Shown here piece after piece: positions 7,158-34,947 of a DNA stretch of 50,399 nucleotides. This DNA comes from Bacteroidota bacterium (GTDB lineage Bacteria > Bacteroidota > Bacteroidia > Chitinophagales > Chitinophagaceae). The position numbers were made by a program, and so were the translations under genes. How positions within the stretch are numbered: position 1 is the stretch's first letter; every line of letters starts with the position of its first letter. Location of the stretch: the NCBI GenBank assembly GCA_005883765.1, contig VBAQ01000002.1, positions 13,787-64,185 on the forward strand, read 5' to 3'. A model generated the notes under the pieces. That model worked only from the letters and a program-made list of their open reading frames with translations. It was not told the origin of the DNA and did not search any database.

Positions 7158-8033
7158 ATGAGTATGCGACAGTTGAAGATCACGAAGTCGATTACGAATC
7201 GTGAATCTCAAAGTCTTGAAAAGTACCTTCAGGAAATCGGCAAAGTCGATCTTATCACCCCCGAAGAAGAAGTCAAGTTAGCCCGTTTAATTAAGCAAGG
7301 AGATCAGAAAGCATTGGATCGTTTGACCAAGGCAAACCTGCGTTTTGTTGTGTCAGTAGCAAAGCAGTATCAAAACCAGGGACTTTCTTTACCCGACCTT
7401 ATCAACGAGGGTAACCTGGGACTTATCAAAGCAGCTCAACGCTTTGATGAAACAAGGGGATTCAAATTCATTTCTTATGCCGTGTGGTGGATACGCCAAA
7501 GCATTTTGCAAGCGTTGGCTGAGCAATCCCGTATTGTTCGACTTCCATTGAACAAGGTTGGATTGACCAATCGGATTCAAAAGGCCTACTCCCAACTCGA
7601 GCAAGAGTATGAAAGAGAGCCTTCAGCTGAAGAATTGGCAACTTTGCTCGAAATGGACATTGAAGAAGTCTCCGCTACGCTTGGAATTTCAGCACGACAT
7701 GTAAGTGTTGATACTCCACTGGCAGAAGGTGAAGACAATACCTTACTTGACGTATTGGAAAATCCTAACGCCGAAAAAACGGATAACGCACTCGATCATA
7801 CCGAATCGCTGAAAGTGGAAATTGAAAGGTCTTTGAAAGCGCTGACCGAGAGGCAAAAGGAAGTGATCTGTTATTTCTTTGGTATCGGTGTCGATCATCC
7901 CATGAGCCTGGAAGATATCGGTGAAAAATTTAGTTTGACGCGTGAGAGAGTTCGCCAGATAAAGGACAAAGCCATCACCAAGCTTAGAACAGTCAATCGT
8001 TGTAAACTTTTGAGAACCTACCTCGGAGGCTAA
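7158..8033 (+). CDS. rpoD: RNA polymerase primary sigma factor RpoD/SigA
   Basis: The housekeeping sigma factor, 291 aa, with no long acidic region 1.1, as in Bacteroidota. Region 1.2 begins [13 protein letters not shown]-like, region 2 includes [16 protein letters not shown] (about residues 96-111, -10 recognition and melting), and region 4.2 has the helix-turn-helix [19 protein letters not shown] (-35 recognition). The conventional start may be the second methionine (7164, [13 protein letters not shown]), two codons inside. It stands alone, with a repeat-bearing leader and a strong terminator at 8106-8132. Confidence 0.97.
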
Positions 8034-8105: not shown

Positions 8106-8132
8106 AGTGAACTTTAAAGTTCACTTTTTTTT
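8106..8132 (+). terminator. Rho-independent terminator of rpoD
   Basis: Perfect palindrome AGTGAACTTTAAAGTTCACT (8106-8125), giving an 8-bp stem with a TTAA loop, followed by a run of eight T. It is 73 bases after the rpoD stop. A repeat island begins directly at the end of the T-run. Confidence 0.85.
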
Positions 8133-8822
8133 ATCGCGGATTATGGGATTGAAACCCGATTGCGAAGATTATTAAATTATTTTGGTCCGGTATTTTATCA
8201 CCGATTCTGGGATTTATAAATGGATTACGCGAATGATTTCAACCGAATTAATTCATAAAATCCGACGATAATTGCAAATGTGTCGGTTGCTGACTTGAAA
8301 TATCATGAAATTACGGGACAAATAATTGGCTGTGCAATGAGAGTGCATCGTTATTTTGGTCCCGGTTTTCCAGAGATAGTTTATAAGAGAGCGCTTATGA
8401 TTGAACTGCGAAAGCTGAGATTAGAATATGTCTCTGAGATGGAACGAGAAATTTATTACGACGGGCAGCTCATTTATAAAAGGAGATTAGACTTGATCGT
8501 AAACAAAGGCATCCTAATTGAATTGAAAGCGGTGGCAGGAATTGACAAGGCTTGCTTTGCCCAAATCATTAACTATTTGAGAGTATTCAAAATGGAAGTT
8601 GGCCTCTCGTTAAATTTTGGATCAAGCAGCTTGCAATTCAAGCGGTTCATCAGCACTGATCGCGGATTAAAAGATTAAAAAGGGACTGGTCGTTTGAGTT
8701 TTTGGCCGGGCATGCTTGCAAAAGTCATGAATACAAACAACCTGCGAAATCCTGATAAAATCCATGAAATCCGCGATCAGCAATCCGTGAAATCCTAATA
8801 TAATCCATGAAATCTGTGATAT
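8133..8822. repeat. Repeat island A enclosing a GxxExxY gene
   Basis: The whole space between the rpoD terminator and ffh carries copies of one word. The left end has ATCGCGGATTATGGGATT (8133-8150); the right end has AATCCATGAAATCCGCGAT (8759-8777), whose reverse complement matches the left copy except for small indels. A near-identical direct copy with two mismatches follows at 8802-8820, and AATCCGTGAAATCC lies between. Another copy, ATCGCGGATTAAAAGATT (8659-8676), forms the last codons of the enclosed gene. Inverted ends around one gene look like a mobile unit, but no transposase or clear target duplication is seen. Confidence 0.6.
8280..8678 (+). CDS. GxxExxY protein (PD-(D/E)XK nuclease-like)
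   Basis: A 132-aa member of the GxxExxY family, named for the motif seen here as GFPEIVY (Gly29, Glu32, Tyr35). The family belongs to the PD-(D/E)XK nuclease-like superfamily; Asp71 and Glu81-Leu-Lys83 (RLDLIVNKGILIELK) match the D-xn-ExK core, so the site looks intact. Cellular function is unknown. GTG at 8280 is used since an in-frame ATG occurs only at 8337, inside the conserved region. The last residues (DRGLKD) are encoded by a repeat copy, suggesting the gene lost its own stop and reads into the island. Confidence 0.85.
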   Translation: MSVADLKYHEITGQIIGCAMRVHRYFGPGFPEIVYKRALMIELRKLRLEYVSEMEREIYYDGQLIYKRRLDLIVNKGILIELKAVAGIDKACFAQIINYLRVFKMEVGLSLNFGSSSLQFKRFISTDRGLKD

Positions 8823-10145
8823 ATGTTCGAATCATTAAGTGATAAATTAGAATCCGCTTTTAAGAATTTAAAAGGGCAGGGACGAATTACCGAACTCAAT
8901 ATTGCATCTACAGTAAAAGAGATCCGCCGTGCACTGGTAGATGCTGATGTCAATTATAAGATTGCGAAGGAATTTACAGACCGGGTCAAGGACAAGGCCA
9001 TGGGTGAAAAGGTCATCAATGCCATTAGTCCCGGCCAATTGATGACGAAGATCGTAAAGGATGAATTGGCCGATTTGATGGGTGGGCAGGAAAGTAGTTT
9101 TGACGCCAAAGGAAATCCCGCGGTGATATTGATAGCAGGTCTTCAGGGTAGCGGTAAAACCACGTTCAGCGGAAAGCTTGCAAATTATTTAAAAACCAGG
9201 AAGGGTCTTTCTCCTTTGCTTGTTGCTGCTGATGTCTATCGCCCGGCTGCCATAGAGCAATTAAAAATAATAGGAGACCAGGTCGGCGTAGATGTTTACA
9301 CCGAAGAAGAAAATAAAAACCCGGTGTCAATCGTACAAAATGCAGTCTAGGAATCAAAAAGCAAAAATAACAACATAGTCATTATCGATACAGCTGGTCG
9401 CCTTGCGATTGATGAAGCCATGATGGCGGAAGTAGCCAACATTAAAAATGCCGTTAGCCCGAATGAAATATTATTTGTGGTTGACAGCATGACGGGGCAA
9501 GACGCGGTGAACACGGCTAAGGCATTTAATGATCGCCTGGACTTTTCGGGCGTTGTGCTGACAAAATTGGATGGCGATACACGAGGTGGTGCGGCACTTT
9601 CGATCAAATACACGGTCAATAAGCCCATTAAATTTATAAGCAGTGGTGAAAAGATGGACACGCTCGATGTGTTTTATCCCGACCGGATGGCGCAGCGAAT
9701 TTTAGGAATGGGTGACATTACCTCTTTAGTTGAAAAAGCACAGGAACAGTTTGACGAAGAGCAGGCAAAAAAACTTGAAAAGAAGATCCGTAAAAATAAA
9801 TTTGACTTCGCCGATTTCAAGGCACAACTGGAGCAGATCAAAAAAATGGGTAACCTCAAGGACCTGATGGGGATGATACCCGGAGTTGGAAAACACATCA
9901 AGGACATTGACATTAGCGATGATTCGTTCAAAGGCATCGAAGCGATCATCAATTCGATGACACCACAGGAAAGAGCCGACCCCGATCTAATTGATAGCAG
10001 TCGCCGCAGACGCATTGCAAAAGGAAGTGGAAAAGATATAACCGAGGTGAATTCCTTTATGAAACAGTTTGAGCAAATGCGTGAAATGATGAAGAACATG
10101 AACAAAATGAACATGTTTGGCAAGACAATGGGGATGCGGAAATAA
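8823..10145 (+). CDS. ffh: Signal recognition particle protein Ffh, interrupted by an in-frame TAG
   Basis: SRP54 GTPase that targets nascent membrane proteins to the Sec translocon through FtsY. The N domain, G1 GLQGSGKTT (residues 106-114) and DVYRPAAIEQL (137-147) are followed by a TAG at codon 176 (9348-9350). The same frame then continues with VIIDTAGRLAIDE, TKLDGD and the methionine-rich M domain to 10145. Total length of 440 codons is normal for Ffh. The stop falls where homologues usually carry a sense codon; CAG to TAG is the simplest change. TAG ends other genes here, so it is not reassigned. Either a sequence error, a real lesion, or readthrough. Confidence 0.93.
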
Positions 10146-33625: not shown

Positions 33626-33976
33626 ATGATGTATCTCACCGTCCGTAAAATTGCGGCTATTGCTGCGTTTACGTGTATTGCAAGTTTTTCATTGGCGCAA
33701 GACCCAGGGCCAAAAACAAAATCAACCGTCGCAGAAAAAAATTTAATCAAGCCATTCCGGATTTTAACCAACGGGCAGCGCATCACCATTCAAAGCAATA
33801 AAAATATCAACAACATCATTGTGTGGACGGCAAGCGGTAACCGTTTTATTGAGCAGGCCAGTCTACAAGCCCCCTCTTATAACTTTATCATCCCGTCAAA
33901 GGAAAAATATGTTTTTATGATGCTGCAACTTGAAGGGGGAAAGAGGTATACAGAGAAGATCGGGGTGCATGAATAA
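33626..33976 (+). CDS. Small secreted protein (116 aa)
   Basis: Signal peptide (about residues 1-24, ending SFSLAQ) followed by a short beta-rich domain: FRILTNGQRITIQSNKNINNIIVWTASGNRFIEQ, reminiscent of secretion-tail or Ig-like domains of Bacteroidota. Two ATGs in tandem at 33626. No family assigned. Confidence 0.6.
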   Translation: MMYLTVRKIAAIAAFTCIASFSLAQDPGPKTKSTVAEKNLIKPFRILTNGQRITIQSNKNINNIIVWTASGNRFIEQASLQAPSYNFIIPSKEKYVFMMLQLEGGKRYTEKIGVHE

Positions 33977-33980
33977 CACG

Positions 33981-34008
33981 AATTATATCGAATTACACGA
34001 ATTAAAAG
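33981..34008. repeat. AATTCGTGTAATTCG word, left end of GxxExxY locus 2
   Basis: Read leftward it is TTAATTCGTGTAATTCG followed by another partial copy. It overlaps the stop codon (34002-34004) of the frameshifted GxxExxY gene. Confidence 0.55.
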
Positions 34009-34375
34009 ACCACCCTTTTATAGGAGAGTGATTTCCCTCCAAAGTTGGCTATTATCCCTAACTTAATTCCTGACGCTTTCATGTAATTGATGGTTTGATA
34101 CATAAAAGGATTTACTATAACGGAGGCTGCTTTTACATCCAATATTATTGAATCAAAAACCACAAAATCTGCAAAATATTTTCTTGGTAAAATTCTTCCT
34201 TTATATCGAATTGTATATGGTTTCTCCGTTTAAAAGGAATCTTAGTATTATTAAACTCAATTTCCAATACGTCTCTGTAGATCACTTCTTTAAAGCCCAT
34301 CCCCAACTCCCTGTGAACTTCCATGCAAGCTCCCACTATCTTATAAGATTCTTCCTTTAAAATGATTTCAGCCAT
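34002..34375 (-). pseudogene. GxxExxY gene broken by a one-base frameshift
   Basis: The first frame (34375 downward) gives AEIILKEESYKIVGACMEVHRELGMGFKEVIYRDVLEIEF, with the GxxExxY motif as GFKEVIY. After FDIKEEFYQ it runs into a stop at 34145. The neighbouring frame continues with ILPRKYFADFVVFDSIILDVKAASVIVNPFMYQTINYM and ends KRVVF at 34004-34002. A single-base deletion near the GAAGAATTTTACC segment explains this. In the second frame the core reads D-xn-DVK instead of ExK, so it may have been inactive even before. Confidence 0.85.
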
Positions 34376-34403
34376 AATTCGTGTAATCGTTTAAAATTCG
34401 TGT
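34375..34403. repeat. AATTCGTGTAAT word, right end of GxxExxY locus 2
   Basis: TAATTCGTGTAATCG (34375-34389) overlaps the start codon of the GxxExxY pseudogene and is inverted relative to the copy at its stop. It continues with TTAAAATTCGTGT up to the dtd stop. Confidence 0.55.
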
Positions 34404-34408
34404 TATAA

Positions 34409-34861
34409 TCACTCTTTACTCTTTGTGTCAATTACAATCGTTACGGGTCCATCATTTAGCAGCTCAACTTTCATGTCAGCTCCAAAAATTCCGGTTTGAA
34501 TTTCTTTGCCAACATCATTTGATAATTGCCGCATCAATTTTTCATAAATGGGAATCGCAACATCGGGCTTACTGGCCTTGATGTATGAGGGTCGATTGCC
34601 TTTTTTTGTAAAGGCATGTAAAGTGAACTGGCTGATCAAAAGAATGTTTCCATCCACATCCTTCAATGAAATGTTCATCACTCCGTGCTCATCATTAAAA
34701 ATGCGAAGATTAATTATTTTATTGCTTAGCCATTTGATATCTTCTGCTGTATCCGCATCCTCGATACCAACCAGCACAAGAAGGCCATCAGCAATTTGAC
34801 CATGGACTTTTCCATCAATGGTTACACTGGCCCTGGTTACTCGTTGGATGACCGCACGCAT
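34409..34861 (-). CDS. dtd: D-aminoacyl-tRNA deacylase
   Basis: Removes D-amino acids (and glycine from tRNA-Ala) from mischarged tRNAs. The 150-aa protein has the two diagnostic motifs, SQFTLHAFTKKGNRPS and LNDGPVTIVIDT, with the cross-subunit Gly-Pro. The start MRAVIQRVTRASVTIDG is the universal DTD N-terminus. The gene is bracketed by inverted copies of an ACACGAATT-type word (34381-34403 and 34868-34892). Confidence 0.95.
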   Translation of the reverse strand: MRAVIQRVTRASVTIDGKVHGQIADGLLVLVGIEDADTAEDIKWLSNKIINLRIFNDEHGVMNISLKDVDGNILLISQFTLHAFTKKGNRPSYIKASKPDVAIPIYEKLMRQLSNDVGKEIQTGIFGADMKVELLNDGPVTIVIDTKSKE

Positions 34862-34867
34862 TTCAAT

Positions 34868-34947
34868 ACACGAATTTTAAGCTAATTACACAATTTTTTT
34901 TTTAGATAAAAACATTCATTTCGTTTAATTCGCTTTAATTCGTGTTA
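34868..34947. repeat. Word repeats between dtd and arfB
   Basis: ACACGAATTTTAAGCTAATT (from 34869) is the reverse complement, with small changes, of the copy beyond dtd at 34381-34403. At 34925-34947 a second set, TTAATTCGCTTTAATTCGTG, reads in the opposite orientation. A T-run lies between them. Confidence 0.55.

Follow-up and report, generated by a model that had tools for sequence, protein, structure and literature searches.

What does a small gene of a nuclease family do between rpoD and ffh, framed on both sides by short repeated words? The question is raised by the window, i.e., the whole stretch of 50,399 nt that was analysed from a Chitinophagaceae genome. An rpoD-like sigma factor gene of the open reading frame (ORF) list (7158–8033, plus strand) lies upstream and ffh (8823–10145, plus strand) downstream, both co-directional with the gene and named as in an earlier note on this DNA. 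The terminator-like hairpin 3′ of rpoD (8106–8132, plus strand), with perfect 10-nt arms and a T run, is outside the element. Then comes the left word array (8133–8236, plus strand), which contains sense words of the class CRCNRAK, namely CGCGGAT (8135–8141), CACCGAT (8199–8205) and CGCGAAT (8228–8234). The gene itself (8280–8678, plus strand) encodes 132 amino acids from a GTG start, a later start being possible, and two abutting words, CACTGAT and CGCGGAT, occupy 8654–8667 (plus strand) within its 3′ end. The right array (8738–8820, minus strand) is formed by two tandem 40-nt units (8738–8777 and 8781–8820) that are 83% identical, with the minus-strand words CGCGGAT (8769–8775), CACGGAT (8783–8789) and CACAGAT (8812–8818); ffh starts 2 bp past it. 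Since the GxxExxY gene is the sole ORF of at least 60 amino acids listed between the rpoD hairpin and ffh, there is no transposase ORF of that size at the element, in agreement with the earlier note. The frame of ffh, a normally essential gene, has one in-frame stop (9348–9350) after residue 175 and continues to 10145; the stop may be genuine or may come from a faulty assembly of this draft genome.

Judged by its sequence, the gene product is clearly a member of the GxxExxY family (TIGR04256, 120.3 bits for a cut-off of 35) within the PD-(D/E)XK nucleases (PF13366, PDDEXK_3, 111.8 bits for a cut-off of 22). In Pfam the flanked gene matched PDDEXK_3 alone, with no HUH Y1 transposase, S23/IVP or known transposase family among the matches. 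The D-xn-ExK core had been described as intact, and so it is (D71, E81 and K83, numbered from the GTG start). Moreover, E27, Y30, D66, E76 and K78 (numbered from a shortened start) show no variation among 103 high-scoring family members, the protein of the window included, 6 of 109 proteins having been omitted for internal stops or length; such invariance would be expected if catalysis matters. Structural information was scarce: an AlphaFold2 model from a four-row alignment had a mean pLDDT of 53, too poor for use, and a sequence search of solved structures gave one chance-level match (E 0.4). No family was matched by the PADLOC defence models.

The family is widespread. In the own genome, 15 HMM matches merge into about 11 GxxExxY loci, six of them intact and the rest decayed or cut by contig ends. 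One of the broken copies is in the window (34008–34351, minus strand, with two HMM matches and an internal stop) between inverted CACGAAT arms (33972–34406; inverted-pair score 42), and a further outer copy of the CACGAAT word was seen there (34375–34895). GxxExxY genes were found in 73 of 148 sampled genomes of the phylum (E 1e-34) and in at least three other phyla. With one GxxExxY protein of genome G028 as query, relatives appeared in 5 of 72,556 plasmid records and in none of 50,697 phage records. A scan of genome contigs gave three relatives. The open-licence literature in PubMed Central yielded neither a function for GxxExxY nor a link to repeats, and no paper for six array sequences searched as text; two published papers mention GxxExxY in passing, and PMC9756366 names PF13366.

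How real is the repeat at this locus? The earlier note had placed four copies of one word, all at correct coordinates: ATCGCGGATTATGGGATT at 8133–8150, AATCCATGAAATCCGCGAT at 8759–8777, AATCCATGAAATCTGTGAT at 8802–8820 and ATCGCGGATTAAAAGATT at 8659–8676. The left and right copies are indeed inverted, but their gapless pairing spans only 10 nt and the remainder needs a 1-nt gap. The copy at 8659–8676 lies, as described, in the 3′ end of the gene, where it encodes the C-terminal end of the protein, but it is direct and not inverted with respect to the left copy. Taken alone, the left/right match is weak, with a score of 23 that is reached at 5.8% of 1394 background positions. The word content gives a much clearer result. 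Three CRCNRAK words are found upstream and three in the reverse complement downstream, with none in the opposite sense; shuffling gave a mean of 0.29 such oriented words, and none of 20,000 shuffles reached six, the word class having been learned from other loci. The exact words are unevenly spaced (starting at 8135, 8199 and 8228, and at 8769, 8783 and 8812), 14–64 nt apart, with degenerate copies visible by eye between them. The repeat of the earlier note is real, but in place of one fixed 18-nt word it is an array of 7-nt words, with letters that follow the protein subfamily. The hypothesis of a fixed word was tried and dropped. The genome contains 14 exact instances of AATCCGCGAT and 4 of its reversed control; among 8 of the 14 places that were examined, three are this locus, one is a gene-free array on contig C159 and four fall in open frames of 343–459 codons with no array. 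The unit is the array and not the 10-mer. The two-word form of the locus has one further copy in the own genome, gene-free, and five matches in G001, a genome of the same genus.

The arrangement recurs at other GxxExxY genes. For each locus, the 250 nt upstream were aligned to the reverse complement of the 250 nt downstream, with mismatched loci as the control. The mean score in family genomes was 36.4 versus 19.9 (n = 28, p 1.8e-12). In a replication with 39 usable loci of 40 it was 43.2 versus 19.1 (p 3e-19), with 28 of the 39 above the 95th percentile of mismatched pairs, and in a phylum-wide set with 29 usable loci of 30 (L306 was dropped) it was 32.5 versus 20.3 (p 5e-13), with 17 of the 29 above that percentile. 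The phylum set keeps L294, whose gene bounds are misplaced by a contig end, and contains the close pairs L287/L290, L291/L300 and L285/L299. The small toxin genes of the ParE control have flanks that are not inverted (19.4 versus 19.6, p 0.38, n = 24; 6 of 30 loci, cut by contig ends, were dropped). In the own genome the score is modest (mean 24.5 versus 18.0, 10 loci); by eye, most GxxExxY loci there are bordered by mirrored arrays of short words whose letters differ by locus. Elsewhere, a Flavobacterium copy (L090) has short CGCAGAT-CACAGAT arms, and copies in G028 have arms of CGCAAAG and of CACAGAG. The words also flank plasmid copies in Gemmatimonadota (inverted score 127), Bacteroides (45) and Bernardetia (36). 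A Treponema copy has two CACGGAT words and an inverted score of only 22, and a Sphingomonas plasmid copy (L309) has two CGCGAAG words and no inverted flank (score 17). Two side observations concern such copies: in Gemmatirosa (L308), each GxxExxY flank looks like a full CGCAGAG hairpin, as if the gene sat between two gene-free arrays, and in L309 the gene lies between fabD and fabG, 2 bp before fabG.

Inspection by eye of the family-level loci, 73 of the 74 collected being usable, gave the class CRCNRAK, for which the phylum set then served as the test; a de novo EM motif search had settled on purine composition and was abandoned. Forms in the family include CACAGAG, CGCAAAG, CACGAAG, CGCAGAT and CACGGAT, to be compared with CGCGGAT, CACGGAT and CACAGAT at this locus, and some subfamilies fall outside the class (TGTCTGAAC...GATT, CACATAG, CATTAAGG and TAAGAG words). 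At the 73 family loci, the sense density is 8.0 per kb upstream and 7.7 per kb in the mirrored downstream flank, the antisense density is 2.9 per kb, and at ParE genes the words occur at 1.2–1.4 per kb. The phylum set, which was not used for the consensus, contains 176 sense and 66 antisense words, against 17 by shuffling, so that antisense words are above chance as well. All 29 of 29 loci have a flank with two or more sense words, and 13 of the 29 have one with two or more antisense words; leaving out L294, L290, L300 and L299 gives 145 sense and 60 antisense words and 25 of 25 loci. The start-to-start distances peak at 8, 9 and 10 nt.

Word and protein vary together. Over 73 loci, protein identity correlates with word similarity (Mantel Spearman 0.226, reached in 0 of 2000 permutations), after removal of 51 of 2628 pairs that share context. 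Coding homology should have no influence when the upstream flank of one locus is compared only with the mirrored downstream flank of a second one; the coefficient was then 0.186 (0 of 2000), versus 0.093 (2 of 2000) in the opposite orientation. At high protein identity, matching in the opposite orientation is nearly equal (0.237 versus 0.271); we read this, together with the antisense excess, as a sign that the flanks are full hairpins. The word ends in G or T, and this last base changes only 3 times on a tree of 103 proteins, with a shuffled mean of 12.9 and 0 of 500 shuffles reaching so few (64 rows of the tree are labelled and 39 are not). It is T in 10 of 10 labelled rows of the deep clade that holds the window copy and G in 50 of 54 labelled rows of the other deep clade. 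Because of this co-variation, recognition of the array word by the GxxExxY protein is strongly suggested.

The history of the site can be followed in relatives. The survey covered 30 loci, the own one included, from 58 genomes with a match, and rpoD and ffh are adjacent in 21 of the 30 genomes. The gene is present between them in the own genome (G000) and in two other genera, G005 and G030, the copy in G030 being broken; it is found there too in L088, from a Chitinophagaceae metagenome-assembled genome. Empty sites, which the earlier note had proposed to look for, do exist: in 17 of the 21 genomes there is no gene but a spacer of 64–227 bp, two of these sites having a possible leftover arm by eye. 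In the same-genus genome G001 the arrays are kept and the gene is absent. Inside this gene-less array pair (L025/L073) there is a hairpin of another word (CACGGAG type, with spacers that by eye measure 1, 2 and 3 nt), possibly a nested insertion. Among the intact copies (the window, G005 and L088), dN is 0.26–0.30 and dS is saturated, so dN is far below dS. Given this, and the same site in two other genera and in L088, the window copy is old and selectively constrained rather than a recent hop; its retention reflects inheritance and selection, along with losses, unless the site was entered repeatedly. No insertion with target duplication was seen, the spacers of gene-less relatives being too diverged for aligning the junctions by eye. 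Neither of the outcomes that the earlier note named as refuting its idea was obtained: words of the same class are strongly enriched near other GxxExxY genes, and gene-less sites exist. For these two reasons a unit framed by inverted repeats, which the protein would recognise, is well supported, and the interpretation given in the earlier note (a mobile unit, or a device that recognises the repeat) is borne out in part.

Arrays without a gene, which we call solos, are numerous. Triple-word matches number 858 in 25 family genomes with GxxExxY at 1e-20 (7.9 per Mb, median 9) and 61 in 15 family genomes lacking it (0.9 per Mb, median 1; p 1.9e-4 between groups), with 30 and 5, respectively, for the reversed pattern; matches overlap inside one array, so there are fewer elements than matches. 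Genome G010 has 305 of them, and 15 places examined among the matches listed are mostly mirrored CACTAAG arms with spacers of 1, 2 and 3 nt, i.e., CACTAAG-1-CACTAAG-2-CACTAAG-3-CACTAAG. The core is mostly constant and 11 of 21 chains are complete; in the twelve commonest forms 76 of 105 words are exactly CACTAAG, while the spacers vary. This large hairpin family was noted as L313–L342. The pairing of words and genes is not one-to-one: the best flank pairs of the three GxxExxY genes of G010 use words other than CACTAAG, its commonest solo word, and G017, which is 98% complete, has 46 triple-word matches as orphan arrays and no GxxExxY gene even at E 1e-3. Gene-free inverted doublets are dispersed between genes in G010, G025 and G028. 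Inverted pairs are about as dense in G028 (44 in 800 kb) as in G019 (11 in 200 kb), and G015 has 7 in 200 kb; G019 and G015 have neither a GxxExxY nor an S23 gene at 1e-20. The difference lies only in the pairs with a period of 7 or 8 nt (match at least 0.5): G028 has 11 among its 44, five located at S23 genes, G015 has 0 among 7, and the 1 among 11 in G019 is a single 17-nt palindrome. Another pair in G028 (C1:139004–139914), 910 bp apart, has its best lag at 7 (match 0.45). The window also holds, at 632–713, a gene-free period-7 word hairpin (AAAGTCAAAAATCAAAAGTCAAAA) of the S23 solo type.

A parallel is given by the genes of the four-helix S23/IVP family (PF05635). At 13 loci of the own genome their mean flank score is 36.1 versus 18.8, and in family genomes it is 36.8 versus 22.8 (n = 27, p 1.7e-13; 2 of 29 loci, cut by contig ends, were dropped). 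No locus of the family set exceeds the 99th percentile of the mismatched pairs (129, with a maximum of 336), though means and p separate; we think that a few mismatched pairs that are near-copies cause this. Inverted arrays with locus-specific words were observed at S23 loci L074–L086 and L119–L147. Among loci with a flank score of at least 28 (29 of 39 usable S23 loci, out of 42 collected, and 46 of 73 GxxExxY loci), 28 of 29 S23 loci have their best period at 7 nt and 36 of 46 GxxExxY loci at 8 or 9 nt. Thus, the pitch of the array follows the protein family. To our knowledge, two unrelated protein families with a family-specific array pitch match no known kind of element. A ring of the TRAP type offers an idea for reading such arrays, and Avd is a pentamer. 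Besides these arrays, S23 proteins are known from intervening sequences of 23S rRNA, as described in parts of PMC4990558, and passages of PMC10053308 deal with Avd and PF05635.

We think it rather probable that the gene and its two arrays form one element, in which the nuclease recognises its own word array in the manner of a REPtron but with an unrelated nuclease. The GxxExxY protein would read a tandem array of a 7-nt word of general form CRCNRAK, usually at a pitch of 8–10 nt, and the inverted arrays around the gene would be its own recognition sites. Gene-bearing copies would act as masters, and the gene-free hairpins would have been dispersed or left behind, relating to GxxExxY as REPINs do to RAYT transposases, with the nuclease family unrelated. 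That the protein binds the word directly, cuts strands and drives the spread is our inference; the pattern suggests a family of dispersing DNA elements that has not been described. More tentatively, and with some doubt, GxxExxY and S23 may each be the master gene of an unrecognised class of elements, whose protein would read a word array at a pitch set by the family (8–10 versus 7 nt), probably in single-stranded form and as an oligomer with one word per subunit. The letters would co-evolve with the protein, so that non-interfering families could coexist in a genome.

The main rival is an element acting at the RNA level, like the intervening sequences of 23S rRNA, that would ride on upstream transcripts, with arms that pair and a protein that binds or acts on RNA. 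The upstream neighbour is co-oriented at 65 of 68 GxxExxY loci versus 246 of 360 ORFs that served as the baseline in G028 (p 2e-7, with orientation set by a longest-open-frame rule), whereas the downstream neighbour, co-oriented at 52 of 69 loci, does not differ from the baseline. On account of this upstream bias, the gene probably depends on transcription from upstream, as an RNA-level element would, and the S23 proteins of rRNA intervening sequences, at least as parts of PMC4990558 present them, have parallel arrays in these genomes. Against this, the fold of the element as RNA is unremarkable (z −1.37), none of 20 loci (16 GxxExxY, 2 S23 and 2 solos) has an Rfam match, and 5 of 15 G010 solos lie between apparently convergent genes. 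Moreover, the arms of G010 solos differ at spacer letters while the word cores are mostly kept, so that word identity and not pairing seems conserved. We consider this explanation unlikely.

It is likewise improbable, in our opinion, that the system only serves the host, with a protein that binds its own arrays for control of expression, genome stability or defence and never spreads. Retention and purifying selection at rpoD–ffh and the co-variation of word and protein would suit such a role; the numerous solos, and the occurrence in one genome of multiple gene copies, some decayed, that carry different words, are left unexplained by it, and no PADLOC model matched. The orphan arrays of G017 and the foreign word of the G010 solos could also mean that the arrays are an unrelated family of dispersed repeats to which GxxExxY genes merely adjoin, but the preferred orientation relative to the gene, the subfamily-specific words and the absence of inverted flanks at ParE genes make this very unlikely. 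That a few short repeats came together by chance at this locus could have been suggested by the ordinariness of the left/right match taken alone; the shuffles of word content speak against it, replication at 28, 39 and 29 further loci refutes it, and we give it practically no weight.

If the arrays are recognition sites of the protein, the function of GxxExxY becomes directly testable and many unexplained intergenic hairpins gain an owner. They would also supply natural word–protein pairs for decoding how PD-(D/E)XK proteins choose their sequences. It would also follow that the arrangement of a repeat plus an endonuclease arose more than once, with unrelated proteins.

Several known systems are close to this element. 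The intervening sequences of 23S rRNA, as portrayed in parts of PMC4990558, share with it a small ORF between complementary ends, the lack of a transposase, vertical inheritance and decay of the ORF. The element described here differs from that account in its location between two protein genes and not in 23S rRNA, in an ORF of a nuclease family and in the word arrays. Palindromes tagged with GTAG or CGTC are dispersed in prokaryotes as well, and passages of PMC3733652 count Bacteroidetes among the phyla with CGTC repeats. Such tags are not enriched in 218 GxxExxY flanks of 109 loci (GTAG 95 versus 176 shuffled, CGTC 53 versus 86), and the arrays of the window contain no GTAG, CTAC or CGTC and a single GACG (8264). 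A further likeness is to REP/REPIN sequences with their RAYT (TnpAREP) proteins and to the REPtron, to which the element does not itself belong, having neither an HUH transposase nor a GTAG or CGTC tag. According to sections of PMC3116915 and PMC8266576, these also comprise short extragenic inverted repeats, hairpin doublets and gene-free copies, with a gene flanked by its cognate repeat and a repeat and protein that co-evolve. Compared with what those sections describe, the protein here belongs to the PD-(D/E)XK family instead of being an HUH tyrosine transposase, the repeat consists of tandem 7-nt words with short spacers, and a genome carries several genes, each with its own word.
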